DNA from: Chrysophaeum taylorii
Taxonomy: Eukaryota > Sar > Pelagophyceae > Pelagomonadales > Pelagomonadaceae
Assembly (NCBI GenBank): GCA_029834535.1
Contig: JAQMWT010000424.1
Coordinates: 1 to 64,000, forward strand
Direction of reading: 5' to 3'
DNA: 64,000 bases
Part shown: in pieces, positions 1,534-38,386 of the stretch
Numbering within the stretch: position 1 is the first letter of the stretch
Layout: every line of letters begins with the position of its first letter
The notes under the pieces: model-generated
What the model was told of the DNA's origin: nothing
Seen by the model: the letters and a program-made list of their open reading frames with translations, nothing else
Database searches by the model: none
Made by a program: the position numbers and the translations under genes

Positions 1534-2657
1534 TCAATCCTTTAAAGGATTCACGTCAGAGGCATGATGCATACCGAGTAGAGAACGAAAAGTGGAGAAC
1601 TCAGCTGCATGTGGTTTTGTAAAGCCATCCGCCACGTTCAGCTTGCCGGGAACATGATGGACTCGTATTTTCTGAAGCGATATGTACTCACGAATCTTAA
1701 ACCATCTAGTCGACAATGCCTTGGATCGAGAGGACCCATCTGGGTTATTAGAGGTGTGAACAGCGGCAGCATTGTCAGACAAAAGAGGTAGGCTTCTGAT
1801 GAATCGCATATCTTCAGCAATTGGGTTGTCATTGTCATCGAAGTCAACAGGGTCAGCGGTGTTCTCACCATTAGCATTGTTGACGTAGAAGGTGGGGTTG
1901 ACGACAAAGGAGAGTTCCAACAGCAGCTTGCGTAGCCAAACAGCTTCATCAGCACAAATACTGAGGGCAATCAACTCAGCTTCGTGAGTTGAGCAGGAGA
2001 CAATCGGTTGAAGTTTGCTTTTCCAGCTAATAAGGCAGTTGAAAAGATAGAAGACAAACCCGGTGGTAGATTTCCTATCTTCCTGTGCTAAGGAAGGGCA
2101 TTGTCAGCGTCAACCATGGCAACTAAGGGGTCAAACTGTCCAGTAGATACATCCTGTGGTTGGTAGTCGACCACAGTGGATAGATCAATTCGACTAGCGG
2201 AGACAGTGCGAAGGTGAGCGGTTTTCCGGCTTCTTGAGGTAGCGAAGTAAATGCTCTAGCATTTGGACGTGAACATATGTGGGTGCATGCATACCACGCG
2301 AACATCTGCCCAAGGCTTGCGAGAAGTCGGGTCTGCAGGCAACTTGCATGAACACCAGCTTGCCAAGGAGGGTGGCAAAGTGCGAGTTGATGTACAACTC
2401 TGTTTCAGTGCTGGGAGTGCCATCTTTATACTTGAAGGACGATGACATAGGAGATTTAAGCGGGTCAGTTGCTGCAAGACTGGGTGATCAGCGAAGAGTT
2501 CATCCAGCTTGGCTTGCACATCCAGAGAAATGGAGCCGCCAGATGTGCGACACACACGCATGCCTAGGAGGGTATGGACAGGTTCAAACTGCTCTACAGC
2601 ATACCGTTTGTGGAGGGCATCCTGTAAGTCTGTACGAAGAGGGTCGTCATTGGACAC
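1534..2657 (-). pseudogene. Copia RNase H and C-terminal reverse transcriptase region, element A
   Basis: The translated pieces contain hallmarks of the Copia RVT_2/RNase H module: a LLGMRV word, the ACRPD...LGRCSRGMHAP stretch, EAELIALSICADEAVWLRK, and the closing HVPGKLNVADGFTKP, equivalent to the usual ADxFTKxL end of Copia RNase H. The same region reads openly in the plus-strand fragment at 31437-32393. It is a fossil part of element A. Confidence 0.8.
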
Positions 2658-2671
2658 AATAACAATGTCGT

Positions 2672-3337
2672 CTACAGACAGACTGCATACGACGAACTTG
2701 GCATGTGCGGATACTGGAGCATATAGGCAAGAGTCCGAATGCAGGCGTTGTAACCAAGGCTACGGAAGAAGCCGTCTATCTCTTTGTTCCAAAGGGATGG
2801 TGATTGCCTAAGTCCATAAAGTGACCTCAGCAGTTTCGGTAGACGTCGGCCCTTGTACTTAGCGTCATCGGGGTCGATAAGCTTGATGCCGTCTGGTAAT
2901 TGAACATAGACATTGGCATCGATGTCAGACTGAACGAAGGCGTTCGGGACGTCTGCATGGTAGACAGGCAATTGCTTGTATGCTGCAATAGCTAGTAGTA
3001 CCCGGATTGCGGTCATAGTGGCCATGGGGCTGAAGGTACCAAAGAAATCGGCGCCAAGAGATGCCAGGAAGCCACGTAGTACGAGGCGAGCCTTGTGCTT
3101 AACGTATTTGCCTGCAGAGTCTGTTTTAATCTTCAGCACCATCTTGCTGTCAATAGGACGAGACACCGTCGGGTAAGGAAAGTTTGAAGCAGCCAAAGCG
3201 CATAATGTCGTGGAGTTCCTTGGCGATGGCCTTGAGGTAGGCGTGCCTGTTTTCAGGCGACAAACCGTGGAGGCACTTAAGTTTATATTCGTCAATGGAA
3301 ACGTCCGCTTCTTGGACCTTATATTCGTCAGGACCAA
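2672..3337 (-). pseudogene. Copia reverse transcriptase core, element A
   Basis: The frame carries the Copia RVT_2 signatures FGTFSPMATMTAIRVLLAIA, the YHADVPNAFVQSDID stretch and SLYGLRQSPSLWN. A VDD catalytic pair (SVDDIVIVS) is encoded just to its left. This is the polymerase that copies the element RNA into DNA in the particle. It belongs to a fossil copy. Confidence 0.85.
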
Positions 3338-4569
3338 CAGTGGCTGGTGAATTATAGTTTAGCGACGTTGCGGTCGAGGCAGTGTGCGCAACTTCGGGAT
3401 AATGGAATCAGCGTCGGTAGGAGTAGTAGGGCAGATTCCAGTTGGATATGGATAGTAGGGTCGGTACGTAAGACCTGGGTGATAAACTCTGTAGAGACCA
3501 GAAGGTATTCCTCCAAGTCAGCCAGAGATGCAGAAGTAGCGCCAAAAAGCTGGTCGGCGCCAGGTACGTAAGTGCATATTGTAAGGAAGAAGTGCCGAAG
3601 GCAGCAGCGTGTTCAGTGAACGCAGATAAAAGGGGCTGAGGAATAGGGCACGCAGGTGAACCATCAGCAGTTAAAAAGGTTGCAGCTGGGATGCTGGATG
3701 CGCACTTGGCGTGGGCGAAGTAACCATCGACGTGCGGGTAGCGGGCAAGTAAGTCAGTGCGCAACGGGAGAAGAAGACGAGCTAACAACGCATGTTCCCC
3801 TCTGAGCAGATAGCAGACCAGAGGATACCACCACCGAGATGAAGGGCGGAGAGGGCGGGAGACTTGAACGTAAGAAAGTGGTGGCGAAGATCCCAGCGGA
3901 AATCGGCGAGCTTGCCACCAGCGGCTTTGTAAGCACCAATAGTAGACGCTTGTAACCGGGCTCGGATAGTTTTCATAGAAGTGGCCTTGCGAGTGTTAGG
4001 CTGTTTGGAACCTGGGACAAGAATGAGGTCATCTTGTGCAAAAGGTCTTTGTAAGAAGGAAGCAAGGGCGGCGGTGACATAGAGCCAGATTCGTCGACGG
4101 TAGCGTCAGAAGATGGAGAAGAGGCCGGAGTAGGGGACGAAGAAGGAGGAGCTGAAGGAGGTGGGAGTGCCTCTGATGATGAGGAGTCTTTGTCCCCCTC
4201 TGAATGACATGGTCTTGGATCGTGGTGTGGGGTGTGAGCGAGAAAGGCGCGGGAGGAGCGTGAGGCGGAGGAGCTAGTTCAGGATCAGGAGTAGGATGCT
4301 GCAACATGGAATTGCAGCTTGGACGAAACACGAATTTGTCCGTTTTCAGGGTTGAGGACGACGTCAGCGAGATGGTCGACGCGGGGGGAGACGAGCGGGT
4401 TTTGCGCGTTGGCGCAACAGAGATACAGATATTTGCGGCGGCACGGTTCCCACTTGGTGTTCATGTCGTTCGAGCATGGAGCCAGGCCGGACCGACAGAG
4501 CCAGTCCGGAATCAGAGACGAGTAACATTGACCAGCGCCACGAGGAATCGATGTGACTGCGATAATCCG

Positions 4570-5523
4570 TCACTGCGAAGTTGGGGAGGAGGTAACATTC
4601 AGCGCCAAAATCTTGAGCATATCGTGTTGGGGAGTGAGTTGGTTGTAGAGTAGCTGTTGCGGACTCAGGATAGCATGGTGAATGCGCTCGAGCGTGACGT
4701 TCGGGAGAAGGTTGTAGCTTTGTACGGTGTGTATCACCGCCCAGGGGAACATTATGGCTGGTTCCACGATCTTGGCGCCACGATAGTGAGCATTAAGGAG
4801 AGAACGAAGGCGAGTTGAGGAGGCGGAGGCGATGAAACCGATGGCAGACTCAACTTCAAAGTTAAAGTGGTGCATGTACGGCGGGAAGGCGATGAGTTGA
4901 ATGCCCTTATCGACGCGGTACGGGGAGGTAATGTGCTGGCAAAAGTAAGGCTTGAATGCATCGGAGTAGAGGGTGCGCATGTGCACATTGAGTTGTGTAC
5001 GACAGAAGTCATACACAAAATCCAGAGCTTGAGTGAACTCCGTGGCGTTGGTGGTGCGTGTAAAGTACACCAAGAGAAATTTCGAAATGAGTTCCTTGAA
5101 GACGATGATATGTGTGAAGCCTCCCCATTCGGATGGGATGGTCACATAGCCGCCGTCGCACGCCCAGACTTCACCGGCTTTGTGGGTTTGCTCAAAAGAA
5201 GGCTTGGTCGCATTGAAATGCTTGTGCGGGTGGCGCTTGTTGTGTGCGATGCAGTCGGTGCATAAGTCGCGATATGGTATGTCAGAAGCAGAGAATCCAG
5301 GGCGAGCAAGTACGTTGGGGGCCTTGGCAGCGACGTTGTCGGGGCAGTGATGCACCCGGTGAAAGCGATTAGCACGTTCTTTGGCATTGAGATATTCGGT
5401 GGATCCGTGTGCGAGGGACTTACGAGGAATTGGATGAGCGGGAATGTGCCGTTTGCGCCGAACATCGAACTTGAGTTCGGTGTCTAAGGCAGGGGAAGGC
5501 GGTGCGTCGTCATCCTGGTGCAC
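4570..5523 (-). pseudogene. Copia integrase with HHCC zinc-binding region, element A
   Basis: A 317-residue frame begins with the zinc-binding part (HRVHHCPDN followed by CTDCIAHNKR). The catalytic core of rve type follows: WACDGGY holds the first Asp, LYSDAFKPYF the second, and FEVESAIGF the Glu. Integrase joins the DNA copy to the host chromosome. It is closely matched by the integrase pieces of elements B and C. Fossil. Confidence 0.85.
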
Positions 5524-5551
5524 AGCAGGGTCACTTGGAGGTACGTCCTCA

Positions 5552-6700
5552 TTATCCCGAGTAGCGAGTATCTTCGTAGGACGACGATATATAGTTTAAC
5601 GACATTTCGGTCAAGCAGCTGCTGGAAATAGACATCATAAAAGATTGTGCCAAAGACAAGGTATCTGTGCTGCACGTGGTGGAGGCTTGGTCAACGGTCA
5701 TGAAATTGGATACATAGGATTTCTTCGTCACGGCAGCAGTATGTTGGAAGGTAGGGTCCAACATAAGGGATTTAATATCGGCGACGATGAGCGAAAGGTG
5801 CTTGTACAGAGTGCTGTACGTACCGGCAGGCAGAGCATTGCTGAGCATGTCACAGCAAAGGTCATGGCGTCGAGACAAGAGGAAAGACTCCTGTTGTTTG
5901 GTGTGGTTGTTAGCTCGAATCAACTCCGGTCGAGTGGGGTAGCGTAATTTCCCGTTGCGAGGGTCGAGTAAAATAATATTGGCGTACCCTCGGACGGTTG
6001 GCAATGGAGCAAGCATTGAGTGCATTTTAGAGCCGAGCTTGCGGTCACTTCCACGAAGGTACCCTATATAGCGACTATGAGATAGGTGATGATGTTCCAG
6101 AGCAAAAAGAGAGTCCTTGTAATCGAAAGAGTTGTCGGTGGCCTTGTAGGTAAGGCAGCCAGGCATCACGAGAGCGCATCTGGACACGAGGTTTTGTATG
6201 GCGGTGCCATAGGTGGTAGCGGAGCCAACTTGGGGTAGCGGAGCCAACTTGGGGAAGGGCTTGGACTATCCACAAGTAACCCATAAACGGCTCCAGATAT
6301 ATGGACCTGTCCCGGTCGCTGGGGATATCGGAAGCAGTGAACGTATACGTGCTCCCAAAGGCGTTAATGGGAGTGGAGTTTTTTGTGGTGGCGTTCTCTA
6401 TGGTCAGGTCGCCGTCGGAATGGTGGCCACCAGTTAAGAAGTAGGAGTTGTGTGATGTTGATGAGGTTGTAAGTAATAACCTGTGTGACGGTTGGTTAGT
6501 TTCGAAAACGGTTATGCAATAGGACACAGGAGTGGGTGAATTAGTATGTAAGCTTGCAAACACGTTATATAGGATTATAAAAATATCGACGTGTATAGGA
6601 TGTGTTGCATTGGGTAATGGCTCCATAGAGGAGCGTTTAAAGCACAACGGATGGTAAGTACACTCGGGTTGAACAGAGTGAGTACGTTGCTCGTGAGCCT
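5552..6700 (-). pseudogene. Conserved region of unknown function between methyltransferase and integrase, element A
   Basis: This stretch matches 12834-13614 of element B and 34849-35600 of element C. Shared words include NQPSHRL, TGGHHSDGDLT (TGGRHTGGDIT in the relatives), INAFGSTYTF, and a later part with SDRKLGSKMHS and RHDLCCDMLSNALPAGTY. It could be the tail of the methyltransferase or a separate pol domain. I recognise no known family in it. Confidence 0.6.
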
Positions 6701-7625
6701 GTTGTGAGTGAAGGCGAAGTAGTAACATATGGAGGGATTTAAGGTCAGCCATAGTAAGCTGAGCAGAACCTGTGCGAGAGTAAGGTGCCAACGTTTTAGG
6801 AACGGATATGTATGGAGGATCGGGGAACACCCGGATCCAGTCTTTGGATATGTGGTTAGGTAGCCAAAGGCGCTTGGGAATAGCTTGTAGATCATCCACG
6901 ATCTTTAGGAAGGGGCGTGGATGGAGGATGGGCCACGATGATAGTTTAATTGGTCCAGTAGAATATCTGCGTGCGACGCATATCCACCTTTCTCTAGATT
7001 GGTAGTCGCCACATAGGTAGGTCGGGAACCTATCAACAACATCGACACAGTAATCAAGAGTAGCATAGATAAGGTTGGCCACTGTGATGTGGTCTTGGTG
7101 ACAGTACTTATGCGGAGGCGTCATCTCAGCCAGTAGTACCAAGGGCTGGAGTAGTTTGATGACAGACAGCATGCTGTCGAAAAGAGAATCGTCCAGCAGG
7201 CTGTGTAAGTCTTCTGACTTTTGTTGTTTTAGTAAATTCCTGTTTGTGCAGGGAGGAGTGATCTCAATTATATCACAATAGAATGTGCGCCTTTCCTCTG
7301 GTGAGATTAGGTGAAGATGGTTAATAAAGGCGGGGAGAGATTCAAATAATAGTACAGTAGGAAAACGGTGGCGTAACATACGAACAAGCGTATCATCAGA
7401 CTCAACAACAACTTTTACATTGATATTTAAGCCTAAGTCATTAGTGGCTTGAGACAGGAACGCCGGAGTTGACAAACCAGAACAAAGTAACATGACAGAG
7501 GGTTTGCGGAGATTGGACTCTTGTGAGAGAAAATTGGCCGTGAAAGTAGTCAACTTAATGGCTGCGTATTTTGCTGAACAAATTTGTTCTGTTTCCGAAG
7601 ATTGAGAACCAAAGGGCGAATCCAC
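6075..7625 (-). CDS. DNA cytosine-5 methyltransferase-like ORF of Copia element A
   Basis: This 516-residue frame begins within the end of the gag-protease frame. Residues 42-300 show C5-methyltransferase motifs in order: motif I-like VMLLCSGLSTPAF (44-56), an acidic motif II pair in VVESDD (73-78), motif IV EITPPCTNRN with the candidate catalytic Cys126, motif VI LLAEMTPP (Glu167), motif VIII YQSRERW (208-214), and a motif IX-like SRTGSAQLTMADLKSL (283-298). I see no clear motif X. The family transfers a methyl group from S-adenosylmethionine to cytosine C5 in DNA. Residues past 300 form the conserved unknown region. Copies B and C keep the same motifs. The subclass (DNMT1, DNMT3 or other) cannot be judged, and activity is unknown. 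Confidence 0.8.
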   Translation of the reverse strand: MDSPFGSQSSETEQICSAKYAAIKLTTFTANFLSQESNLRKPSVMLLCSGLSTPAFLSQATNDLGLNINVKVVVESDDTLVRMLRHRFPTVLLFESLPAFINHLHLISPEERRTFYCDIIEITPPCTNRNLLKQQKSEDLHSLLDDSLFDSMLSVIKLLQPLVLLAEMTPPHKYCHQDHITVANLIYATLDYCVDVVDRFPTYLCGDYQSRERWICVARRYSTGPIKLSSWPILHPRPFLKIVDDLQAIPKRLWLPNHISKDWIRVFPDPPYISVPKTLAPYSRTGSAQLTMADLKSLHMLLLRLHSQQAHEQRTHSVQPECTYHPLCFKRSSMEPLPNATHPIHVDIFIILYNVFASLHTNSPTPVSYCITVFETNQPSHRLLLTTSSTSHNSYFLTGGHHSDGDLTIENATTKNSTPINAFGSTYTFTASDIPSDRDRSIYLEPFMGYLWIVQALPQVGSATPSWLRYHLWHRHTKPRVQMRSRDAWLPYLQGHRQLFRLQGLSFCSGTSSPIS

Positions 7626-10324
7626 GGCCGATCTGGTAAAACTCGTTGGAGTAGGTAATTGTAGTATGCCAGTAGGTCCCTGTTTTCATGGTATCGCTTG
7701 AGGGGAAATGCAAGGGAGCGAAGTTCCAGCCGCTTGTCGCGCGCGATGTTGTAAGTGATACAAGGGAGAGCGGGTAAATTAGCTGCTACATAATGTATGG
7801 GTATACGTACATCGTTGTCTATGCGGCTCGTGACAGCGCTGAGCTTTGGCTCAGCTCGATCGTTGAACACGGTGGTAAGATTGGTCTGGTTCCATTCGAG
7901 CATGCTCAGGATAGCGAGATGTCGGTCATGCACTGGTTGAAGACATAAAGCGAAGTCGATCTTAACGTAGCCAACTTGTGGATGATCTGGTAGGGGAATA
8001 ACGATGTTGCGTGTTAACATCATGTGTGATGCCCGTTGTTGTCCTGTTGCCGTCTGAATAACAATCGGAGCGTATGTGGAGTCCAATGGAATTATATGAT
8101 TGGGTATTGCGAAATCGTAGGTGGACATCAATGAGATGGTAGCACAAGAGTCAAAATATAGAAAAGAGCAATGTGGAGGGACACTGTTTACCTTCATGTA
8201 GTTGGTGAGGAAGGCGTTTTCCGAATGTGGGCAAGTAGTGGAGAGGCTGGCTGTAAAGAAGTTCTTCAGCAATAACAGATTCGTTGGAATAATGATCGGT
8301 TGAGCAGGTGGTGATGGCTCGTCAGCCTCATCAGCCATGCCGTGTTTTTCGTCAAATGACGATAGAGAGGTGTGATCGGCATCCCTTTTGGTTTCGGCTT
8401 GTGACGGTAGGTTGAGGGCAGATTGGACCTGTGAAGATAGCGAGGACAATAATGCTGGTGGTAAAGCCGAGATGGCGGAAGCGGTAAAGAGGTTAGACAC
8501 AGTATTGGAAGGATTACCCTGTGTGTTTGTAGTAGGAGGAGTTGTTGTTGGGGTGGGAGCAGTAACGACAGTATGGTGTTGTGGCTCCACGTAGTTTAAC
8601 GACTTTTCGGTCGAGGATAGATGAACGTCTACATCATAAATGATGTCTTCTGCAAACACGAGCTGTTCGTTTATACGAAGTAAACTACTGTTGTCCTCAG
8701 TAGATGTTCTTGACAGGATATCGGCTGATTGTAGCAAAGTCTCAAATAACTTGTTGATTTTATGTTGTAGCTGAGCCGTGGTATCATTACCTGTCACATG
8801 CTTCGTGAGTTCGCTACACTGTTCTCGCAGGGTGTTTAAGGTGTGGTTTGTTCGATCTAATAATTTCATGTTAGACCGAGAGGACCTGTCAAAAGTGCGG
8901 GGGTAAATTGGACGGTCATGGGACTGTCCGGCAGTTTTCTTGGTGACGTAAGAATCACCAGGACGATAATACGATAAATCGCTGCGAGAGAAAGGCTGGC
9001 GAGCATCATTAGAGTTACGCAAGCGTCTAGCATTGAACGTGGAAGATGTACCAGGTTGGGACGAAGTGATGAAGGCGAGTGTGTTAGCAGTTTGAGTCAG
9101 ACTTTTGTCCGATGAGTCCAAAGTGTGTGTAAGGAGTAACTTTGGCTTTGATTGGGATGATAAACCTTCGACATAGGGTTGCCAAGAAACAGGGCGTTCT
9201 AAGCGCCTTTTGTTCGACCCATTTGATACGACATTGTAAAGGTCTAATGCGTATTCTAAAATGTAGCTTGGGTTGGTAGGGTGACACAATCGTTCAGCTT
9301 CTGGTACAGGTCGAGATGAAGATCGGGTTTCGTACATATAACACCAATCTACCCAACCACGATCGTAGCGGTTGTTGCTGGTATTATCGGCATAATGCCG
9401 ATGTATCTCTTCACAGATTTTTATGCAAAGAGCACCAAAGTCGAATTGAAGGTCAGTCTCTTCCTGGTTAAGTTGGTAAGAGATTTGCCTAATTGCTAGG
9501 ACAGCTTCGATAAATACATGGACATACCAGTTAGGATTATAAACAACAGAGTTAAATTGCTGTTTCAAATAAGACACATCAGTAGTCGTAACAGACTCGT
9601 AGTGACTAAAGACGATGAGCATAATAGCTCGAGCCTGGTTGGGTAAATAGCTTTTGTTGCATATCTCACTGATGGCGGGCCAGGCCGCAAGTGCCGGTTT
9701 TCCAACACTTTCAAGATTGAAGTAAGTATGCAAGAATGTAGCGTGCGTGTTCTGGTAAGTGTGCCAGTCAGCTGCAGTTAAAGAAAACATGGTAACCGGG
9801 GCACGAACACGAGTGTCGAAAGCTAGTGCCTTCGGGTGGGCGCGATTTAAGATTCGTTCCTCTTCTAAGAAACGAGCGTTGATTTCAGGACGTAATGCCT
9901 TGACTTCATAGTCGCAACAGACGGTAGTTAGCTGAGCTACTTCTGCATCAGGTAAGTGGGGGAAAGCTTCGTTGGTGAAATGCCATTCCTGATACTCAGG
10001 GGGTAACTCATCAACAGCTAAACGGAGATCAGCAGCCCTATCGGCCTTCCATTCCAGGAAAACGCGATTGAGAATTTGATTCCGGAGAATTTCGTAGTCC
10101 TTGCATGACCGAGTATATGCTTCATACGAGTCGTACTCGAGGAAAGCATCGGCATGACTGGACCGTAGTAATTGCTTGATATGCTTGATTTGCAAGGATA
10201 CCTTGCGGTTCTGAACCTGAAAGCGGTTGCCCTCATTAAGAAACTCAACTACAGGAGCTTCGAGCTTCAATATATCCGCACCTGTGATCGCCTTAGGTGC
10301 GGCTCGTGCTGCGCGTTCTGCCAT
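7550..10324 (-). CDS. Gag-protease polyprotein of Copia element A
   Basis: The frame stays open for over 900 residues. The Met at 10324 (MAERAARAAPK) is preferred because homology to the other gag copies starts just after it. Everything upstream is leader and inserted SINE, although the frame runs on to 10453. The gag part is alpha-helical and conserved with B, C and F (for example EYDSYEAYTRS near residue 60). The C-terminal third holds a retropepsin-like domain with FDSCAT in place of the usual DTGA/DSGA, followed by a GYVKIDFAL strand. It should encode the particle shell protein and the protease. I see no CCHC knuckle. The frame looks whole. Confidence 0.75.
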   Translation of the reverse strand: MAERAARAAPKAITGADILKLEAPVVEFLNEGNRFQVQNRKVSLQIKHIKQLLRSSHADAFLEYDSYEAYTRSCKDYEILRNQILNRVFLEWKADRAADLRLAVDELPPEYQEWHFTNEAFPHLPDAEVAQLTTVCCDYEVKALRPEINARFLEEERILNRAHPKALAFDTRVRAPVTMFSLTAADWHTYQNTHATFLHTYFNLESVGKPALAAWPAISEICNKSYLPNQARAIMLIVFSHYESVTTTDVSYLKQQFNSVVYNPNWYVHVFIEAVLAIRQISYQLNQEETDLQFDFGALCIKICEEIHRHYADNTSNNRYDRGWVDWCYMYETRSSSRPVPEAERLCHPTNPSYILEYALDLYNVVSNGSNKRRLERPVSWQPYVEGLSSQSKPKLLLTHTLDSSDKSLTQTANTLAFITSSQPGTSSTFNARRLRNSNDARQPFSRSDLSYYRPGDSYVTKKTAGQSHDRPIYPRTFDRSSRSNMKLLDRTNHTLNTLREQCSELTKHVTGNDTTAQLQHKINKLFETLLQSADILSRTSTEDNSSLLRINEQLVFAEDIIYDVDVHLSSTEKSLNYVEPQHHTVVTAPTPTTTPPTTNTQGNPSNTVSNLFTASAISALPPALLSSLSSQVQSALNLPSQAETKRDADHTSLSSFDEKHGMADEADEPSPPAQPIIIPTNLLLLKNFFTASLSTTCPHSENAFLTNYMKVNSVPPHCSFLYFDSCATISLMSTYDFAIPNHIIPLDSTYAPIVIQTATGQQRASHMMLTRNIVIPLPDHPQVGYVKIDFALCLQPVHDRHLAILSMLEWNQTNLTTVFNDRAEPKLSAVTSRIDNDVRIPIHYVAANLPALPCITYNIARDKRLELRSLAFPLKRYHENRDLLAYYNYLLQRVLPDRPWIRPLVLNLRKQNKFVQQNTQPLS

Positions 10325-10381
10325 AGCAGTTGACGGGGAACCTGTGGGTTCAGTCACGCAGTTGACACTGTCTAGACATTC

Positions 10382-10740
10382 CCTTACCCTGATCGCCGAC
10401 TGCGGTTGCGATGGAGGACGGTGCCTCATGAATCCTGAGCCTTGCGAGGGCATCCGCCCTCCCGGCGTAGGTTGGCACCTATTCGCCTCCCAGGCGGGCC
10501 GGTTGGCAGCCGGAACGTTCGCAGTGGGACGGGGTATGGCCGGGGGGCGAAGACGGAAGGTTATCGGCGAGTTGGTTGTCAGTCACATCGCGGTCTCCTC
10601 GTCGCATTGCGACAAGCTTGATGGTCACTCTCCGCCGACCGACCTTTCGGCGCTCCTCGTCTACAGGCCCGTGATTCCGGACTGGCTCCTGTCGGTCCGG
10701 CCTGGCTCCCATGCTCGGGAGAGGTCTGAAGTTAGTTAGT
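10382..10740 (+). mobile_element. SINE-like element S1, full length, with TTAG tail
   Basis: A 359-bp non-coding unit begins near CCTTACCCTGATCGCC, contains GCGATGGAGGACGG and CCCGGCGTAGGTTGGCACC, and ends in GGTCTGAAGTTAGTTAGT. It is flanked by a perfect 9-bp target-site duplication, TAGACATTC (10373-10381 and 10741-10749). It sits in the leader of element A, just upstream of gag. The short repeated 3' tail and the duplication indicate insertion by LINE-type machinery. I found no convincing polymerase III A or B box, so the source of its head is unknown. Confidence 0.8.
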
Positions 10741-11198
10741 TAGACATTCTAAGGGGGTCTGTCTATCGGTGTCTATGTACACTCATCGATTTTTTCGATG
10801 GAAAATGTGTCTATATGACGACTGTGCAAGCCGTGAGTCCAGAGTAGTGTCGCTAAGCGTAGTCACTCAGGCAGCTGGTTAGTTTTGGTGCTTTCGAGGA
10901 GCTTGTTAAGCATTGCCATGTAATGTACGAGTGGACGTACCCAAAATATTCCATAACATGTGTGCAAGAGTATAGGTTAGCCAATTACACACACATCAAC
11001 ATTAACATGACAATACGATGCTATGAACTGGTGCACACAAGGTTACACGATCACGTGTGCAAGAAGATATTATATACAGCCCAATGGTAATGGCGATGTA
11101 TTGACAAGCGTGTCACATGTCGAGGCTAGGTCGGCGCGGTAACGACCCAATACCCATAGGTGACGTGCATGTTGACACATGGTTTTCTCAGGGACCCG

Positions 11199-11213: not shown

Positions 11214-11525
11214 TGCAGAGCATTTAGCAAGCAGTGGTAAGTCACCTGGGAAACCATCCCGTCTCTCCGAACGTCTGGAAAGGCTAATTCGGGGAATGAA
11301 AGGTTATGTTCCCTATATCCTCAGAACACGACCGGCGGCATCTAGAACTACACGAGAAAGATTAAGTGTATAGTGCTACATACCTCGGGACGCGCTACAC
11401 CATGATGATGAGCGTAGGCACAAATCAGAGGACTATTTGATTGTGTAGAAAGGAAGAATAAGGGTAAGGAAGAGATCACGTTCTCAACGGACGGATAAGG
11501 GTAAGAGGCAGCAGATTTCTCTGCA
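11214..11525 (-). repeat. 5' LTR of element A (312 bp)
   Basis: The repeat is bounded by perfect 7-bp inverted ends, TGCAGAG and CTCTGCA. It abuts the primer-binding site on its left and element B integrase sequence on its right. A close relative lies at 38390-38704, there preceded by a polypurine tract, which confirms both LTR ends. Family termini are TG...CA as expected. Confidence 0.85.
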
Positions 11526-12585
11526 AAATGATTAACATGGGGTGTTATTAAAGGGTTTATAACGTTAGCACCACATAAGTAGATGTAGGGCCGACATAGG
11601 GGTTCATATTTATGAAATTCGTTAGGTTCCAAATGCAAATAACAAACAGAACCAAAAGGTTCGAGGTAGTATTGTTGGGGAACATTACATTGGTCTAACA
11701 AAACTTGTTGGGGGCTTAGGACATTATTATAGATACGTTCGAGGGAAACGTTAGGGAGGAGATTATATGATTGGATAGCTTGTATAACAGCCCACGGGTA
11801 GTGTGGTGCCGGATCTGTTAGGGGGTGACCTTTATAGGATACATTAAGCATATGCCGGAGTCGTGTAGACGCGGCAGTGGCTATGTGACTAACAGCGGCT
11901 TCGACTTCATGATTAAAGACATGTAAGTAAGGGGGGAACGCGGACATATTAATACCATGGTCCACACGGAAGGGGGTTGTAACATGCTTGGATAAATAGG
12001 GTTTAAAGGAATCACAATAAATTTGTTTTAGTTGTACATGAACATAAGTAGAACAAAAATTACGAACAAACTCAAGGGCGTTACAAAATTCGCTGGAGTT
12101 AGTGCTACGACAAAAGTACACTAACAGAAATTTAGAAATGAAACACTTGAAGACAATGATATGTCGAAAGGACCCCCATTCCGAGAGCACAGAGACGTAA
12201 TCACCATCACATGCCCAAGCTTCACCAGGTTAAAATTTTTTTTCGAATGATGGTTGCTTGATAAGGTGGTGTGGATGAGGAAAGCGTTTTTTATGAATCG
12301 TACAATCCACACAGAACTTACGGTAGGGTACGTCAGATGGGTGGTGTCCAGGACCGGCAATAACCCGAACAGCTTTTGTGGCTTGAGAATCACTGGAATG
12401 GTGAATGTTGTGAAAATTGGTAGCTCGTTGTTGCGCATCTCGAAATGCAAGGGTGCCCCTGGCATGGACTTTCTTATCGAAGGGTGCATGCTTCTCATGG
12501 AGCTGTCTTGGCGTTGTAAGGGGTATTTGTTTTTCTTTAGTAGGAGATGATATATCTGCGGGTGAGATGTTAGAGAGGAAAGCAT
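11526..12585 (-). pseudogene. Integrase, element B
   Basis: The HHCC part and the rve core of element A are repeated here (WACDGD-like stretch, ISKFLLVYFCRSTNSSEFCN, QIYCDSFKPYLS, FNHEVEAAVSHIATAAS). The catalytic D, D and E positions are recognisable. The open frame runs artificially on to 11348 because it reads into the LTR of element A. Fossil. Confidence 0.8.
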
Positions 12586-12833: not shown

Positions 12834-13614
12834 TTATAAATTATATATATGTTCCAGCTGGAATAGCATTTGCGATGATATCACAGCATAGGTCAGGGGA
12901 CAAAGACAAAAGAAAATTGATTTGGTACGCTGTGAAGTTATTGGCGCGTGCCAACTCGCGAGTTGAGTAGTGTCGAATGCGATCGAGTCGTGGATCGTAC
13001 ACCAGCATATTATCAAATCCACGAATGGTAGGAGTGGGCGTGTATATTGAGTGAACTTTGGCACCCATCTTCCTATCGCTTGATGTTATAAAGCCCAAAT
13101 ATATGCTTTGGGACAAATGCATATCACTTAATGCAAATACTTTGTCGATAAATTCGAGACGATTTTCCTGAGGGTAGAAGACAAAAGAATCGTGAAATAC
13201 AGGAGAGGTATAGGAAGCCAGTGCTTGTACTAGACGACGCGTGTCTTGATTTTCATTATTATGATGGTATGCTTAGCAAAGTCGAAGAAAACCGGTAACA
13301 GGTTCGAGAGAAGCAGTCTTATCGATTCCGGCATCGTGTGTTAAAAGGGCGTAGGTTTAGCCAAAAGCATTTATGTGTGCCTGGTATTTAGAAGAAGAGT
13401 TAGAAACTGTTATGTCTCCGCCTGTATGTCTTCCACCAGTGATGTAAATGATGGATGAAGTAGAGGATTTATTTAAGAATAACCTGTGAGATGGTTGGTT
13501 AGATTCGATAGTTGTAATACGAAAGGACACAGGTAATATGATGGATTTAGGGAATAATCGTCCCATAATATTATAGAGGAGCACAAAAGCTTTGAGTTCA
13601 ATAGGGGATCTCAT
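12834..13614 (-). pseudogene. Conserved post-methyltransferase region, element B
   Basis: It contains ITGGRHTGGDITV, NQPSHRLFLNKSSTS and LSLSPDLCCDIIANAIPAGTY, all shared with element C and more distantly with A. No known domain is recognised. Conservation in all three copies argues that it is a functional part of the family. Confidence 0.6.
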
Positions 13615-14537
13615 GCAAGCAAGTGTCTTCTTGAATTAGTCATTAATCCCAGGCGAAAGTTGGAAATGCCCTCCATTTCATCTTGACTGGGATGTTCGAC
13701 TGTTTTATTAGAGTGCAGACGAAGGAACAGCATAGTTAAGGTTTCAAGCTCAGTCACAGTTAAGCGCACGGATCCTGTACGACTGAAAATATTGCAGGTT
13801 TTAGGTGTGGACACAAATGGTATGTCAGGAAAGACCTGCGTCCAAGGTTCGTCGACTATTAACTTGCGACTGATGGAATTAGCGTGGTCTGCAATATCCA
13901 GAAAGGAAGCGACTCGTTTATTAGGCCATGAAAGCAGATCAAGAGGGCCGGTGTTATACTTGCGTGCGACGAGGATCCATCTTTCTCTGGCTTGATAATC
14001 TCCACATAAGTAGCGTGGAAATCGGTCACATATGTCCACCGTATAGTGTATCGTTGAGAAGATGAGATTGGCAACTCGCATATGATCTTCATACGATGCG
14101 GAGTGTGGTGGAGTCATTTCCATGAAGAGAACAAGCGGCTTTAAAAGCTCAAGTACACTTAGAGCACTTGGGAACAAATAATCATCCATATCGCGCTCGA
14201 AGGTGGAAATGGATCTCCCGTTGATTATGTTGCGATTTGTGCATGGTGATGTCAATTCCACTATGTCAGTGTAATATCGTGCACGTTCAACGTCCGATGC
14301 TCGATGGAGATATGTCAAAAACTTGGGTAAGGATGGGAAAACTTCGATGGAATTACCAAAACGTCCTCGTAGCATGTGCGTGATATTGTCGTCGCTCTCA
14401 ACAAGAACTTTAACGTTGATGTTGACTTGCAAGTCATTAGAAGCGCAAGCTAAGAATGCAGGAGTGGACATCCCAGAGCAAAGTAAAGTTACTGTAGGTA
14501 TTCGTGGGCTAGTATATGAAGTTACTGTATGGAGCAA
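13611..14537 (-). CDS. DNA cytosine-5 methyltransferase-like ORF of Copia element B
   Basis: This 308-residue frame carries the clearest motif set: TVTLLCSGMSTPAFLA (15-30, motif I), VLVESDD (44-50, motif II), YYTDIVELTSPCTNRN (88-103, motif IV with Cys99), PLVLFMEMTPP (134-144, motif VI with Glu140), CGDYQARERWILVARK (178-193, motif VIII) and SRTGSVRLTVTELETL (252-267, motif IX-like). Spacing and order fit the DNA_methylase (PF00145) fold up to motif IX. It lies between the protease and integrase regions of the same element. The target specificity cannot be predicted. Confidence 0.82.
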   Translation of the reverse strand: MLHTVTSYTSPRIPTVTLLCSGMSTPAFLACASNDLQVNINVKVLVESDDNITHMLRGRFGNSIEVFPSLPKFLTYLHRASDVERARYYTDIVELTSPCTNRNIINGRSISTFERDMDDYLFPSALSVLELLKPLVLFMEMTPPHSASYEDHMRVANLIFSTIHYTVDICDRFPRYLCGDYQARERWILVARKYNTGPLDLLSWPNKRVASFLDIADHANSISRKLIVDEPWTQVFPDIPFVSTPKTCNIFSRTGSVRLTVTELETLTMLFLRLHSNKTVEHPSQDEMEGISNFRLGLMTNSRRHLLA

Positions 14538-14555
14538 ACGTGTTGTAACCTTGCG

Positions 14556-18000: not shown

Positions 18001-18699
18001 GATCCGACGCACCCTCGAGTGTGTCCTCGCATTTGACTACGTGCATCGTGCTTCAAGACTTACTGGCTTTGTTTTATCGTCTCGCGTTTCGTACCGATGA
18101 ATGTGGTTGTACCCTTGAGAAGCTCAACAACAATCAATTTAGATGGCATGCACAACCACTTCCGCCGCGCTATCCGCCGCGTCGTCAGCCACGACTTCAG
18201 ACTCTTCCAACTGACCTACCCTCGAAGCTCCCCTTTCCCAACAACCTGGCTCTACTCGATTCCGACGCACTACCCAATGTCATTTTGGCGGCTGCAAGGA
18301 TCACTTTAAGAGGGACTGCCGCACGTTCCAAAGTTCCTAGCTATTCCACGACAATGCGCTACCCACCATCGCCGTTCTTCTCAACAGCGCAACACTTCCA
18401 ATGACTCCAAAAACACCCAACAACACCAACCCACCACCACCAACACTACCTTTTCTGCTCCTATGCCTACTCCCACCTTGACTGATTATAGTTCCACTCC
18501 GCCGCTTTTCTTAATACCACCATCTATTCCACCCCCTTCACCGCCTTAAACGGCCACACCCACCGTCTCACATACCCCTCCCGATACTCTGTCTCATGCC
18601 AATCAAGATAATTCCAAGTCAGCGTGTGTACCGCCGAATGTCTGATGCAAGCACATCAACAACCCCATCCCACGGAAGCCCCTCGTTTTTGTTTTTAGC

Positions 18700-19240
18700 T
18701 CCCATTGCACTGGCGCCCTTCGTTCTGTATTTTCCGCTATTCGTTGTTCAACCCCTCGTTCTGTATTTTCACCTCGTCGTTGCTACCGTTCTGTATTTTC
18801 ACCTCGCCGTTGCTCCTCTCCTCGTTCTGTATTTCCCCCTCGTCGTTGCTCCTCTCCTCGTTCTGTCTTTTCACCTCGTCGTTGCTCCCCTCCTCGTTCT
18901 GTATTTTCACCTCGCCGTTGCTCCTCTCCTCGTTCTGTATTTCCCCCTCGTCGTTGCTCCTCTCCTCGTTCTGTCTTTTCACCTCGTCGTTGCTCCCCTC
19001 CTCGTTGTCTTTTCACCTCGTCGTTGCTCCCCTCCTCGTCCTGTATTTCGCCTATTCGTTGCTCCACTCCCCGTTGTGCATTTTCAGCTATTCGTTGATC
19101 CACTCCCTGTTGTGCATTTTCAGCTCTTCGTTGATCCACTCCCCGTTCTACATTTTCTGCTATTCGTTGATCCACTCCCCGTTGTGCATTTTCACCTATT
19201 CGTTGATCCACTCCTCGTTGTGCTTGTCGGTTTTGGTAAA
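18700..19240 (+). repeat. Pyrimidine-rich minisatellite, about 36-bp units
   Basis: Units of the type CTCGTTCTGTATTTTCACCT followed by CGTCGTTGCTCCT repeat roughly fifteen times, with a variant set (ATTCGTTGATCCACTCCC) in the right half. The repeat-made open frames on both strands are not genes. The array has expanded inside the degraded gag region of element D. Confidence 0.7.
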
Positions 19241-19787
19241 ACCAGCGAATCACGTTCCATCGCGCATTTCATCCGCCACAACTAAGCTGTGCGTGTCAGT
19301 TTTTCGCGTGCGCAGCTTTCGTGCTTCCTATGTGGTTGGATCGCTCATCTTCGGGATCATGGACCGCCGCTTCTTTGCTGTGTTATTCGGCTTCTTCGTC
19401 TACGGTATCAACACAATGTTGTGGTTCTCCTTCGCGCACTATCGCCTTTTCGCCGCTTTTCTGACCTTTAAAATCCGGTTTAGCTATCGAAGTCAATTCC
19501 GTGCTCAGCACCCGCGACGCTATCTGCAATGTTCTTGCGTGTCACTGCGACGCTATCTGCAACGTTCTTACGTGCCACAACTGTTATGCCACTATCGCCA
19601 ACTTCTACCGCAGTCTATTCGAGCATGACGAGCAAAGATCGCCGCTTGCTCCTCCAACGTTGGCTCATATGGCAACTTCGTTCTTGCGAATGCGAAAACG
19701 GGCCACTTTCTTATCTGCCACAGCAGGCTGGCATACAGCAGCCTGGTCTCCCCGTGTTCGTTCCTTACACCGCTGGCATGGCAATGG

Positions 19788-20047
19788 CTCCGCAAACCCT
19801 CTGTCATGTTACTTTGTTCTGGTTTGTCAACTCCGGCGTTCCTGTCTAAAGCCACTAATGACTTAGGCTTAAATATCAATGTAAAAGTTGTTGTTGAGTC
19901 TGATGATACGCTTGTTCGTATGTTACGCCACCGTTTTCCTACTGTATTATTATTTGAATCTCTCCCCGCCTTTATTAACCATCTTCACCTAATCTCACCA
20001 GAGGAAAGGCGCACATTTTATTGTGATATAATTGAGATCACTCCTCC
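19788..20047 (+). pseudogene. Captured fragment of the retroelement methyltransferase inside element D
   Basis: About 260 bp is nearly identical (about 99% by eye) to element A at 7252-7511, covering motif I up to just before the motif IV Pro-Cys. Identical 42-bp direct repeats (19736-19777 and 20047-20088), made of element D sequence, flank it. A piece of one Copia family was thus pasted into another, with duplication of the recipient sequence. Confidence 0.8.
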
Positions 20048-21029
20048 AGCAGCCTGGTCTCCCCGTGTTCGTTCCTTACACCGCTGGCGCGTCAGAAGTC
20101 TTCCATCTTCGCGTACAGGACGCGGTCGTGCCCATGGCAACTTGCTCGCGCCACAACAAACAAACACCCAACGTTCGCATCAACCCTGTTTACGCCTGTT
20201 TTTGCTTCAGTCGCCTCCGACCATCGTCATAACCTGGTCACCATACAACATATCTGCCCAAAGGCAACGTTCTCATCCGACGTCTGGTACACTGCCATCA
20301 CATATACCAGCCTGTGTTCCCGCTCTCTTTACCCCGCTGCGATTCTCAGTGGCAACAATCGCCTAACGCTAGTCTTCCCAGGCACTTTTGTCGCTATTCT
20401 TCTTCAGACCTCGCTTTTGCTGACAGTTTCGCTTATCATATTTCCTGCAATGTCACCCACCGAAGGCACTTCAACGTTGTTCCGACTTTTTCGAATCACG
20501 CTTCCAAGCTCTCGTCTACTGTTGCCCCATTGTCACCTGTTCCTGCTGTTGCCCGGTCGTCACCTGTTCTTCCGCTGTTGCCCCCTTGTCCCCTGTGTTT
20601 GATGAGAATGCGCCGGTTTCACTGGGACTGATCACCCCATCACGTGAACCGACCATTCTACGAGCTCATGAACTCCGCCGAACCAAAGAGAGAAAACAAC
20701 AACGTGCAAAACAAAGTCGAGCCAACCAGAGCCGACAAAACAACAAGCATGCAAAACAAAAAGCATGCAAAACAAAGTCGAGCCAAACGGAGCCGACCGC
20801 GCAAAGTCGACAAAAAGCGCACATTATTCAGAAACAAATGGAGAACCAACTCAAACCCACAATACTGGCGCTTTACCACGCACTGTTGGTTCTGTGTCAT
20901 CTCATGTCGATTCTGTGTCATCTTGTCATTCCCTTCGATTCTGTGTCATCTTGTCATTCCCTGTACGTTAATTTTTCTAGCTTTCGTTTGTTAGTTCATT
21001 ATGTCATCCTTCCCCTCTGTCTCGCCCAG

Positions 21030-24299: not shown

Positions 24300-24310
24300 G
24301 TCTCAATGCT

Positions 24311-27935: not shown

Positions 27936-28095
27936 ATTTGTATTGCTTTCTTGCTGTCTTCTTGATATTACCCTCTTTTGATTGTCCGATTTCGTGATGG
28001 CGTGAGGTATTACGCTGAGATCGGGCGTGTGGTGGTTTCACCCGCGGTTCGGGTTGGGAGGAAGGGTTGTTGAGGCCCCCGGTCCGGCCAGGAGC

Positions 28096-28970: not shown

Positions 28971-29060
28971 ACTTCATGACAAGCCGATTCTTGATATTCT
29001 CGCGGGCGTACTTTTGCTTCTCGCTCCTCGCGCCCTCCTCGTGTATCTGGCAGCTGTCAC

Positions 29061-29512: not shown

Positions 29513-29521
29513 AGAGACTTG

Positions 29522-29610: not shown

Positions 29611-29612
29611 TT

Positions 29613-34848: not shown

Positions 34849-36369
34849 CTATTCACGAGTTGAGTAATGTCGAATGCGATCGAGTCGTGGATCGTACAAG
34901 ATCATATTAGCAAACCCACGAATGGTAGGAGTGGGAGTGTATATAGAATGAACTTTGGCACCCATCTTCCTATCACTTGATGTAATAAAGCCAAGGTATC
35001 TGCTTTGAGACAGATGCATGTCACTTAAAGCAAAATTTTTATCGATAAATTCGAGACGATTTTCCCGAGGGTAGAAGACAAAAGAATCGTGAAGCACAGG
35101 TGAAGTATAGGAAACCAGTGTTTGTACTAGACGACGCGTGTCGTGATTTTCATTATTATGATGGTATGCTTGACAAAGCCAAAGAAAACCGGTAACAGGA
35201 TCGAGAGAGGCAGTCTTATCGATTCCGGTGTCGTGTGTTAGGAAGGTATAGGTTTCACCAAATGCATTTATATGTGCCTGGTATTTAGAAGAGGAGTTAA
35301 AAACTGTTATGTCTCCACCTGTGTGTCTTCCACCGGTGATGTAAATGATGGAGGAAGTAGAGGATTTATTTAATAATAACCTGTGAGATGGTTGGTTAGA
35401 TTCGATAGTTGTAATACGAAAGGACACAGGTAATGTGATGGATTTTGGGAATAAGCGTCCCATAATATTATAGATGAGAACAAAAGCTTTGAGTTCAATA
35501 GGAGATCGCATACAAGCAAGGGGCTTTCTTGAATTAGTTAAGAATCCTAAGCGGAAGTTAGAAATGCCCTCCATTTCATCTTGACTTGGATGTTCGACTG
35601 CTTTGTTTGAGTGTAGACGAAGAAACAACATGGTTAAAGTTTCGAGTTCAGCAACTGTTAAGCGAACGGATCCTGTGCGACTGAAGCTATTATGAGTTTT
35701 TGGTGTAGACACGAATGGTATGTCGGGAAAGACCTCCGTCCAAGGTTCGTCGACTATTAACTTGCGACTGATGGAGTTAGCGTAATCTGCAATATCCAGG
35801 AAGGAAGTGACTGAGTTGTTAGGCCAGGAAAGCAACTCTAGATAGCCGGTATTATAATTGCGTGCAACAAGGATCCATCTTTCTCTGGCTTGATAATCTC
35901 CACACAGATAGCATGGAAATCGGTCACATATATCCACCGTATAGTGCATCGTAGAGAAGATGAGATTAGCAACTCGCATATGGTCTTCATACGATGCGGA
36001 GTGTGGTGGCGTCATTTCCATGAAAAGAACGAGCGGCTTTAAAAGCTCAAGTACACTTAGAGCACTTGGAAAGAAGGAGTCGTCCATATCACGCTCGAAA
36101 GTTGAAATGGATCTCCCATTGACTATGTTGCGATTTGTGCATGGGGATGTCAGTTCCACTATATCAGTGTAATATCTTGCACGTTCGACGTCCGATGCTC
36201 GATGGAGATATGTGAGAAACTTGGGTAGTGATGGGAAAACTTCGATGGAATTACCAAAACGTCTTCGTAGCATGTGCGTGAGATTTTCGTCGCTCTCAAC
36301 AAGAACTTTAACGTTGATGTTGATTTGCAAGTCATTAGAAGCGCAAGCCAAGAAGGCAGGAGTGGACAT
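34849..36369 (-). CDS. DNA cytosine-5 methyltransferase-like ORF of Copia element C
   Basis: This 506-residue open frame starts within motif I (MSTPAFLACASNDLQ) and keeps VESDEN, motif IV VELTSPCTNRN, motif VI LVLFMEMTPP, motif VIII DYQARERWILVARN and motif IX-like SRTGSVRLTVAELETL. It is colinear with the ORF of element B. It continues without interruption through the conserved unknown region (TGGRHTGGDITV, HINAFGETYTFLTHDTG, VHSIYTPTPTIRGF), so methyltransferase and unknown region are one polypeptide here. That supports a two-domain protein in the family. Confidence 0.8.
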   Translation of the reverse strand: MSTPAFLACASNDLQININVKVLVESDENLTHMLRRRFGNSIEVFPSLPKFLTYLHRASDVERARYYTDIVELTSPCTNRNIVNGRSISTFERDMDDSFFPSALSVLELLKPLVLFMEMTPPHSASYEDHMRVANLIFSTMHYTVDICDRFPCYLCGDYQARERWILVARNYNTGYLELLSWPNNSVTSFLDIADYANSISRKLIVDEPWTEVFPDIPFVSTPKTHNSFSRTGSVRLTVAELETLTMLFLRLHSNKAVEHPSQDEMEGISNFRLGFLTNSRKPLACMRSPIELKAFVLIYNIMGRLFPKSITLPVSFRITTIESNQPSHRLLLNKSSTSSIIYITGGRHTGGDITVFNSSSKYQAHINAFGETYTFLTHDTGIDKTASLDPVTGFLWLCQAYHHNNENHDTRRLVQTLVSYTSPVLHDSFVFYPRENRLEFIDKNFALSDMHLSQSRYLGFITSSDRKMGAKVHSIYTPTPTIRGFANMILYDPRLDRIRHYSTRE

Positions 36370-36453
36370 CCCGGAACAAAGGAATGTTACTGTAGGTGTT
36401 CGTGAACTTGGAGAGGTAGTTACCGTGTGGAGAAAGCGTGTGGTAACCTTGCG

Positions 36454-38386
36454 TCATACAGGAGGTGAGAAGTGCTTGCGTATATAAGGCAGCTGCGAAT
36501 GCATTGACTCCAAGATGGTTTTAAGCCATGGTACGTAAATTACGCGTTCCATGAGGGTGGAATATAGCTTAAGCATTTCGCGTTGTTCGTTAAAAGCACT
36601 TAATCTGAACTGTAATGAGCGAAGTTCCATTTTACGCGCTTTCGCTTGTTGTAGCGAATAAATTGGGAGAGTAGGCAACAAGTTATTTAATCTAAACAAA
36701 GTAATCTTGACATTATCGTCAATTTTACTCTGGATAGATGATTGTCCTTTAAATTCAACCCCATAAAGATGTATACCAAGTTTATCTTCTCCCCATTGAG
36801 TCATGCTGATGATGTGCAGATCGGGATCGTTATGGTCGTTTTGCTTGGGTAGGAAAAGCGCAACGTCTAGCTTTACGTACCCACATTTGGATGCCTTGGG
36901 AGAGCGGGAATGACAGTTCTTATAATCATGGCATGTGTGATACTCTGAGTATCCGTAGCAGTCTGGATAGCGGGTGACAAGGACTCGGGTAGTTTAACAA
37001 TATGTATTGGATCAGCGTAACGTTTAAAGTTAATTACATGTTGAGAGGCACACGTGTCAGCATATCCTGGCGTCGTCATTAGCGGTAGATTGTACACATT
37101 GTACAGTGTACAGCGTAACGTTTAAAGTTAATTACATGTTGAGAGGCACACGTGTCAGCATATCCTGGCGTAGTCATTAGCGGTAGATTGTACTCATTGT
37201 ACAGTTTAAGCATTGTTGCGTAACAGGCATGTGTCGAGCTTTGACCAAACACGTACTGTGTCATGAAACTTTGCGTTTGTTCGGAAGGCACAACGACGAG
37301 TGTACAACCATTGTTTTATTTTGGTAGCAACACAGGGGGATCTGTACCATCCTCATTATCTTCGTTGGGTTGATTGTTGGGGAGCTCGGAGTGCGAGGAA
37401 GTTTCCCGAGCTTGACGACGAACAATAGCATTCTGGGCTTTAGCGTTTATGTGCTGCAGTAGCGGCTGAGGAATGTTATCGATTTCATCATCTTTGATGG
37501 ACAGAAAAGTATGAAACATTTTCTCTGTTTCAGCAGCCCCCCTCTGCTCCGCATCACTGGGGGACGCTTCAGGAGCAGAAGTTTCAGCTTGATACTTTTC
37601 TTCTATAACATGAGATTCTTTATCGGCTTCTAAGAGGTTCGATATAGTATTGGACATAGTATCAACTCGAGATAAGTATACATGAACTTGAGTAGCTTCG
37701 TCAGGATCTAAAGATTGTGTCGAAGCTTGAGAGGCGGCTGTCCAAAGGGTACTAAGTAAGCTCTTCATTTCCTCCTGTACCATTTTAGAATCGGTGGAAG
37801 GATTGGGATTTGCTTCCTGTAATTTACCAAACAGGTGGCGAAGAAGATCAACTTGATAAGTAGCCCGGTCCATAAGAGACATGTTAGAGCGTGAGTTGCG
37901 GTTAGAGGAGTGTGAGTAGACAGGACGGTCGAAACTGGTGCCTTTAACGTTATAATTTGAAGGTGGACGATAGTAAGACGCATCACGAGGTTAAATTGTC
38001 GATGCTATATCTTTTGCATTACTACGCTTACGAGCGTTAAAGCCAGACTGTCCAGCCACAGTAGCCAGCAATGAGTAAGCATTGTTTAGAGAGTCGTGGG
38101 ATTGATGAATAGTATCCATCAATAATACCTTAGGTGGCTTGGTAGCGGTAGTACCAGGGATGTATGGAATCCATGATGCGGGTTTATCCAAGCGTCGGTT
38201 AGATCAAAATTTTGTTTCATTATATATCTTTAACAAGAAATCCAATAACGGACGAACGTCGTTAGGATCGACTAGCTTTAAAACTTCAGGATCGTGAGTC
38301 GAGTTGTTCCCAGAGCGTGTCTCGTAGAGTTTACACCATTCTAATGAAGACTGAGCGTAGCGCTCGTGATCAGAAGGATTAGCATA
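36454..38386 (-). pseudogene. Protease and gag 3' part, element C
   Basis: Open pieces at 36454-36804, 36873-37291, 37316-37882 and 37991-38191 match B. The protease reads YADTCASQHVI as in B. The gag linker has ALLQ-type helices (MSLMDRATYQVDLLRHLFGK) and an acidic stretch before the protease. Fossil. Confidence 0.75.

Follow-up and report, generated by a model that had tools for sequence, protein, structure and literature searches.

Cytosine methylation usually silences transposons, and elements that themselves carry a cytosine methyltransferase (MTase) are therefore a puzzle. LINE, DIRS and Gypsy elements with DNMTs have already been published, as set out in the accessible text of de Mendoza et al. 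2018 (PMC5890265). These include KnitGypsy-Dnmt3 of Klebsormidium nitens, in which a C5-MTase lies inside Pol and Ka/Ks is below 0.2. According to the same text, two SymbioDIRS DNMTs methylate CG in yeast, and the LINE and Gypsy DNMTs had no activity in yeast, a result called inconclusive by the authors. Marking of the element's own DNA copy is proposed there for DIRS elements, and the Copia superfamily in Symbiodinium is presented, in the accessible portion, without any DNMT domain. One sentence of a 2025 MBE article, in its accessible part, places some DNMT3 members in 'LTR Copia and DIRS' with reference to the 2018 paper (PMC12344493), and the accessible part of another source (PMC12477816) describes an N4/N6-type methyltransferase in a Sola DNA transposon. 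No Copia element such as that considered below is described in the accessible parts of PMC9998398, PMC12477816 and PMC11347835, and a literature search that covered mostly papers outside subscription returned no description of a Copia clade of this kind. What appears to be new here is a clade of Copia elements with a Pol-fused MTase, the MTase-bearing LINE, DIRS and Gypsy elements being already known.

Window elements and the place of the domain in Pol

The window is the whole 64,000-nucleotide stretch analysed from contig JAQMWT010000424.1 of Chrysophaeum taylorii, and it holds three elements (A, B and C) of a Copia family named Fam1. The minus strand is the coding strand of all three. On the plus strand, positions 6725-7502, where the original prediction had placed the MTase of element A, contain many stops and no open frame; the motifs that it quoted are nevertheless all present, in the order given, in minus-strand frames of A (6075-7685), B (13611-14555) and C (34849-36453). 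By alignment, A is 49% identical to B and 46% to C, and B and C resemble each other closely. Fam1 is treated as two subfamilies, A and C, with B grouped with C. The features are listed below; L067 is a marine contig and L070 another genomic copy, both discussed later.

7550..10582, minus strand: element A open frame of 1010 aa for a gag-like part and protease, with the protease-like site DSCATISLM; gag and protease by eye, no convincing Pfam match in this frame
6075..7685, minus strand: element A MTase frame, with motifs I-VIII and the first part of the target-recognition region; L067 match at E 1.1e-27
7455..7493, minus strand: element A motif I (MLLCSGLSTPAFL), from sequence
7239..7256, minus strand: element A motif IV with the catalytic Pro-Cys, PPCTNR, from sequence and alignment
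7113..7127, minus strand: element A motif VI, EMTPP, from sequence and alignment
6984..7001, minus strand: element A motif VIII, QSRERW, from sequence and alignment
5552..6265, minus strand: element A C-terminal part of the MTase on a second frame (copy frame-shifted); near-identical letters in a single frame in L070
5921..5947, minus strand: element A motif IX, LRYPTRPEL, from sequence and L067 comparison
5828..5851, minus strand: element A motif X, DMLSNALP, from sequence and L067 comparison
4570..5595, minus strand: element A integrase frame; Pfam rve E 0.0033, under the curated cut-off, HHCC and DDE by eye
2256..3358, minus strand: element A Copia reverse transcriptase (RT), two overlapping frames; RVT_2 E 7.8e-30, the second 1.1e-5 and below cut-off
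1534..2103, minus strand: element A RNase H-like frame, by eye; no Pfam match
13611..14555, minus strand: element B MTase frame, motifs I-VIII, from alignment
11348..12229, minus strand: element B integrase frame; weak matches to rve (0.069) and SH3_retrovirus (0.011), neither reaching its cut-off
34849..36453, minus strand: element C MTase frame, with motifs I-VIII plus the recognition region and a stop inside motif IX (...HYSTRE*), from alignment
36454..36993, minus strand: element C frame immediately preceding the MTase, on the protease side, by eye
19779..20055, plus strand: detached subfamily A MTase fragment covering the region of motifs I to IV; inverted relative to 7252-7511 and about 99% identical to it, with other repeats beside it

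Element A is frame-shifted, element C is stopped inside motif IX and the frame of element B ends in the recognition region, indicating that the window copies are broken. A copy whose frame stays open across MTase, integrase and RT is present in the genome (L070, subfamily A), with all three in a single 1691-residue frame and an MTase 93% identical to that of element A over 434 residues. Ahead of RVT_2 this frame has matches to rve (0.0076) and SH3_retrovirus (0.00056), both below cut-offs, with HHCC and DDE residues seen by eye. The Copia-type RT (RVT_2) was found in both L070 (E 7.7e-42) and element A (E 7.8e-30). In a second Copia family, Fam2, one 1769-residue frame (L056) similarly takes in PF00145 (4.6e-7) and the beginning of RVT_2 (1.7e-12), along with a protease site recognised by eye. 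The MTase lies in Pol with protease on one side and integrase on the other, in agreement with the arrangement originally predicted.

The association with Copia RT was also counted across the genome. Among the best 150 of 1670 genome candidates for RVT_2, an MTase of subfamily A or C precedes the RT by 2-7 kb on the same strand at 61 sites (A at 43 and C at 19, one site having both), and 28 of the 43 A-type MTases lie 4.0-4.3 kb upstream. The control pairings gave 0/150 on the opposite strand and 0/150 downstream. Secondary fragments and Fam2 were excluded, so that the count rests on 146 of the 149 A rows and 81 of the 87 C rows; on that basis, 89 of the 150 sites have no A or C MTase listed. 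An MTase-free Copia element in the window (24293-27981, plus strand), with a zinc knuckle (zf-CCHC), gag_pre-integrs, integrase and RVT_2, demonstrates that the domain is not in every Copia element. Flanking LTR pairs were recognised neither in the window nor in seven long loci, stretches that are possibly too short for this purpose.

Several other repeats were observed in the window. A short repeat of 110-300 bases occurs in both orientations (10438-10743, 23991-24296, 29302-29494, 31093-31269, 43658-43861 and 47911-48021), with 98% identity in two copies. A 700-base direct repeat (28971-29670 and 30746-31445; 99%, 1.8 kb apart) possibly represents the LTRs of a short element. Tandem arrays are found at 62042-63133 (about 38 bases), 18685-19251 (about 36), 44157-44734 (about 81) and 54897-56050 (about 111), the last inside a minus-strand frame with FAST/RAP domains (54341-57760). 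Elsewhere in the assembly, a 103.6-kb plastid-like contig (G000:C697; L050, L068, L069) carries psaA, psaB, psbA, atpB and tatC as well as psbV- and ilvB-like genes (names by eye), its PsaB being close to photosystem I chains in PDB. This contig marks the host as an alga, probably one whose plastid is of the red lineage.

Identity and relatives of the methyltransferase

Direct searches with the window copies are silent on the identity of the domain. The PF00145 search that had been proposed for the window frames failed, with no match for any of the three MTase proteins in a Pfam scan; phmmer of the window proteins against PDB returned no MTase, and a Fam1-only profile (11 sequences) against PDB returned six unrelated chains (E 1.2-1.7) and no MTase. 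A Pfam scan of 11 Fam1 members saw PF00145 as the sole family, in 2/11 and at a best E of 0.037, too weak to count. The missing Pfam match in the window copies would fit an unrelated domain that resembles MTases in its motifs by chance, a reading that is scarcely credible beside the database relatives, their PF00145 scores, the collinearity with L067 and the PDB profile matches described below, on which it was rejected.

A Fam1 profile run against 5.8 billion proteins found five relatives (E 2.3e-77 to 6.6e-20), three of which exceed the PF00145 cut-off of 22 bits (P0006, 23.0; P0008, 41.8; P0009, 32.2) and two of which are below it. A wider profile, for which the best 7999 candidates were scored, added six proteins, namely five L067-like proteins and one bacterial C5-MTase (8.9e-4). 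The combined profile of 13 rows, four of them Fam2 (A8), matched 29 PDB chains, 27 of which are labelled cytosine methyltransferase (DNMT2/tRNA ones included), with a best E of 1e-7, M.HhaI at 2.6e-7 and DNMT2-type chains at 0.021 to 0.28. The other two are a proteasome subunit and a Rad8 chain, the latter presumably a DNMT5 entry, and none of the 29 bears a DNMT3 label. When the Fam2 rows were omitted (A7), 11 of 12 PDB matches were labelled MTases but were weak (best 0.029), indicating that Fam2 supplies much of the strength of the PDB test. The C5-MTase identity proposed at the outset is upheld by the relatives above the PF00145 cut-off together with the A8 profile; on sequence grounds, the domain is a C5 cytosine methyltransferase whose homology is shown only through its relatives.

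The 13 rows (four Fam1, four Fam2, L067 and four database proteins) share 21-31% identity with the first row, and their invariant columns include the Pro-Cys of motif IV, the Glu of VI and the Arg of VIII. The original labels of these three motifs stand, whereas that of motif IX does not: the pattern SRTGS..LT...L lies within the target-recognition region (element A frame 6075-7685), and the true motif IX-X of element A (LRYPTRPEL...DMLSNALPAGTY; frame 5552-6265, with IX at 5921-5947) is found beyond that region. Alignment of Fam1 with Fam2 by hhalign runs motif to motif but is not significant (E 0.053), and no relationship was detected by hhalign between a Gypsy-borne MTase of this genome (Fam3, below) and either Fam1 (E 0.27) or Fam2 (E 0.44). 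Two AlphaFold models, with low pLDDT values of 52 and 56, show strand-helix alternation, plausible mainly in the N-terminal part.

The C-terminal end of the domain was recognised through L067 (NHBR02000125.1), which contains gag, protease (by eye), MTase motifs I-X and integrase in one 1962-aa frame, open at both contig ends. This contig is filed as a Muricauda (bacterial) MAG contig, and its source is probably eukaryotic. Its C-terminal pattern PTIT...RYLSIAEM...IANAVP is the textbook motif IX-X ending, and the same pattern stands before the integrase in Fam1 and Fam2. The PF00145 match of L067 continues through profile position 285 at 19.0 bits, below the cut-off. By blastp L067 is collinear with Fam1 (I-VIII, E 1.7e-25; IX-X, E 1.5e-12) and matches Fam2 at E 6.6e-9 and 1e-4. 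Motifs IX and X are complete in L070, L051 and L067, and lie on the second frame in element A. The IX-X pattern and the L067 alignments together indicate that the MTase is complete (motifs I-X). In L070 it comprises about 550 residues, with motif I at residue 21 and motif X at 561. The spacing from VIII to IX is 345 residues in L070, 340 in L051 and about 317 in L056 versus 115 in L067, indicating that the recognition region is enlarged in the Copia families of this genome.

Fam2 (L056, L057, L058, L011-L028) has an MTase with the canonical ENV motif that passes PF00145. Both Fam2 and L067 have a related MTase at the same position, and MTase and integrase are collinear in Fam1, Fam2 and L067. 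A single aligned stretch between Fam1 and Fam2 begins ahead of motif IX and continues into the integrase (E 2e-16). Furthermore, the RTs of Fam1 and Fam2 are 42% identical over 126 residues, compared with 29-34% for either against the MTase-free window element. In a 16-row tree, Fam1, Fam2, L067, P0005, P0006 and P0008 form one group (support 95/95), separate from the bacterial enzyme, the Gypsy-borne enzyme and the two apparent host DNMT genes (L009 and L010, one DNMT2-like and one GTEAP-type with an acidic N-terminus). The tree was rooted at its midpoint and carries long-branch warnings, with a possible false Fam3-DNMT2 join flagged; consequently, only the separation of Fam1, Fam2 and L067 from the others is used, and cautiously. 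An origin of the Fam1 domain from a DNMT2-like enzyme or a host DNMT was rejected by sequence comparison and by this separation. The sequences fit one MTase capture before the Fam1, Fam2 and L067 lineages split.

The same genome contains a Ty3/Gypsy family (Fam3; L049, L052-L055, L066) with a C5-MTase of its own (GAGGST...SPPC), located between a protease region (by eye) and RT; RVT_1, RT_RNaseH and Integrase_H2C2 are found among L053-L055. No similarity between the Fam3 MTase and that of Fam1 or Fam2 was detectable by blastp, and its closest match among the proteins compared is the DNMT2-like host gene, weakly (0.001). Many more partial PF00145 matches (profile positions 2-53 and 7-77) were seen and are maybe copies of the Fam3 MTase. 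A search for long polyproteins (805-2562 aa) found none at E 0.001, and viral contigs likewise yielded none. More speculatively, a single ancient capture may have founded an undescribed marine-protist Copia clade in which the enzyme gained a long recognition region for selective marking of the element's own cDNA, the independent Gypsy capture making this a repeatedly winning strategy; we regard this larger picture as doubtful.

Spread, constraint and proposed role

Within the 70.8-Mb assembly there are at least 149 matches to subfamily A and at least 87 to subfamily C, fragments included, numbers that place the domain beyond chance. Nothing of weight favours a recent chance pick-up of a host silencing enzyme or an assembly or contamination artefact, the filing of L067 under a bacterial MAG being what could be cited. 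Such an event is very improbable, since A and C differ at about half their residues with the domain at the same position and Fam1 has no close relationship to the host DNMTs L009 and L010; it is also contradicted by the match counts, the RVT_2 pairing and the tree.

The full set of motifs I, IV, VI and VIII is present in 18/20 A copies and 8/8 C copies, falling to 6/8 C copies if motifs IX and X are also required. Motifs IV, VI and VIII occur together in 16/18 Fam2 copies and, with looser patterns, in 7/7 further Fam1 copies; taken singly, each of the three is retained in 19-20 of 20 A, 8/8 C and 16-18 of 18 Fam2 copies. Motifs were counted in any of three frames over the whole locus, so that a neighbouring copy could substitute, and the loci had been chosen by similarity. 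Ratios of dN/dS are 0.055-0.10 in nine of ten C-type pairs (dS 0.42-2.1) and 0.45 in the tenth, a close pair (dS 0.07). Across the 8 fetched C copies dN/dS is 0.087 for the MTase and 0.102 for the following region. Among 16 A copies the within-family value is 0.28; of the diverged A-type pairs, two were scorable (0.15 and 0.46) and four saturated. The copies used are the best-scoring ones, and four A copies with stops (L032, L040, L043, L044) were omitted, which biases dN/dS towards low values, the between-lineage ratios being less affected. Together with the match counts, these ratios agree with the initial view of an old, selected part of the family and support purifying selection on an old domain.

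Loss of catalysis, with the domain retained in Pol to bind nucleic acid or SAM and so to help particle assembly or target choice, is improbable. The divergent motif VI of Fam1 (EMTPP, versus ENV) and a sequence too diverged for Pfam would suit it, but few columns are invariant across the 13 diverged rows, those of the catalytic residues among them, and nearly all copies examined retain these residues.

The preferred reading is that a clade of Ty1/Copia retrotransposons carries a complete C5-MTase (I-X, long recognition region) between protease and integrase, and that this enzyme probably methylates the element's own cDNA. The MTase would be packaged with RT and integrase inside the particle, where it would methylate cytosines of the fresh DNA copy before or at integration, and new insertions would then be already marked on entering the genome. 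Such a mark might hide, protect or moderate the copy; the original prediction likewise envisaged methylation of the element's own DNA copy or of host DNA, possibly tuning its silencing. The sequences establish the family and place of the domain, its in-frame fusion with integrase and RT, its spread and the purifying selection on it; co-packaging and methylation of the DNA copy are what we infer. The yeast activity of the SymbioDIRS DNMTs is a published precedent for this reading, and the yeast inactivity of the LINE and Gypsy enzymes stands against it.

The CpG composition and mutation pattern of the elements also speak against this reading. Heavily CpG-methylated genomes show a several-fold C-to-T excess at CpG. 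The observed/expected CpG ratio of elements A-C is 0.94-0.95 (not depleted), and that of a GC-rich host stretch 1.38. C-to-T rates at CG, CA, CC and CT are 0.028, 0.019, 0.030 and 0.022 among A copies, 0.053, 0.050, 0.038 and 0.059 among C copies, and 0.071, 0.041, 0.057 and 0.093 among Fam2 copies. The CpG rate is 1.20 (A), 1.06 (C) and 1.14 (Fam2) times that of the other three contexts pooled, coding constraint included, so that the A, C and Fam2 copies have no strong CpG mutation footprint and at most a slight excess. The lack of a strong footprint would also agree with RNA as the substrate, in which case the element's own RNA or the primer tRNA, and not cDNA, would be methylated in DNMT2-like fashion. 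The long recognition region (345 residues in L070 and 340 in L051, versus 115 in L067) points the same way, as does the suggestion of RNA methylation for a LINE-borne DNMT in the accessible text of de Mendoza et al. (PMC5890265). RNA is nonetheless an unlikely substrate, as bacterial DNA MTases lead the profile matches with DNMT2-type chains far lower (0.021 to 0.28), and the domain resides in Pol together with RT and integrase.

The enzyme has persisted across deep divergence in a common type of LTR element and accounts for over 200 matches, counting fragments, in the 70.8-Mb genome of this alga. This retention and abundance, together with comparable versions having short and long recognition regions, make the question of what a transposon gains from DNA methylation directly testable.

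Comparison with known methyltransferase-bearing elements

Similar to Fam1, SymbioDIRS-Dnmt3 and SymbioLINE-Dnmt of Symbiodinium have many DNMT-bearing copies; in contrast to Fam1, these are, as far as the accessible descriptions go, a tyrosine recombinase element and a LINE, respectively, and not LTR-integrase elements. The 'LTR Copia' of PMC12344493 would share a DNMT in Copia, although the 2018 paper cited for it says Gypsy and the accessible text gives no anatomy; additionally, the members mentioned there are DNMT3, and the Fam1 MTase has no assigned DNMT class.

The Fam3 Gypsy elements of the same genome also have a C5-MTase after a protease region (by eye) and before RT. They differ from Fam1 and Fam2 in having a different MTase on a separate tree branch and in their Gypsy-type RT, RNase H and integrase zinc domain. 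L067 shares the order gag, protease (by eye), MTase I-X and integrase, its RT being outside the available contig stretch, and differs in its short recognition region, with 115 residues between VIII and IX. Finally, KnitGypsy-Dnmt3, as described in the accessible text, resembles Fam1 in being an LTR retrotransposon whose Pol frame includes a C5-MTase that is under purifying selection. KnitGypsy-Dnmt3 is a Ty3/Gypsy element with a Dnmt3-type enzyme, whereas the elements described here are Ty1/Copia and carry a divergent MTase without an assigned DNMT class and with an enlarged recognition region.
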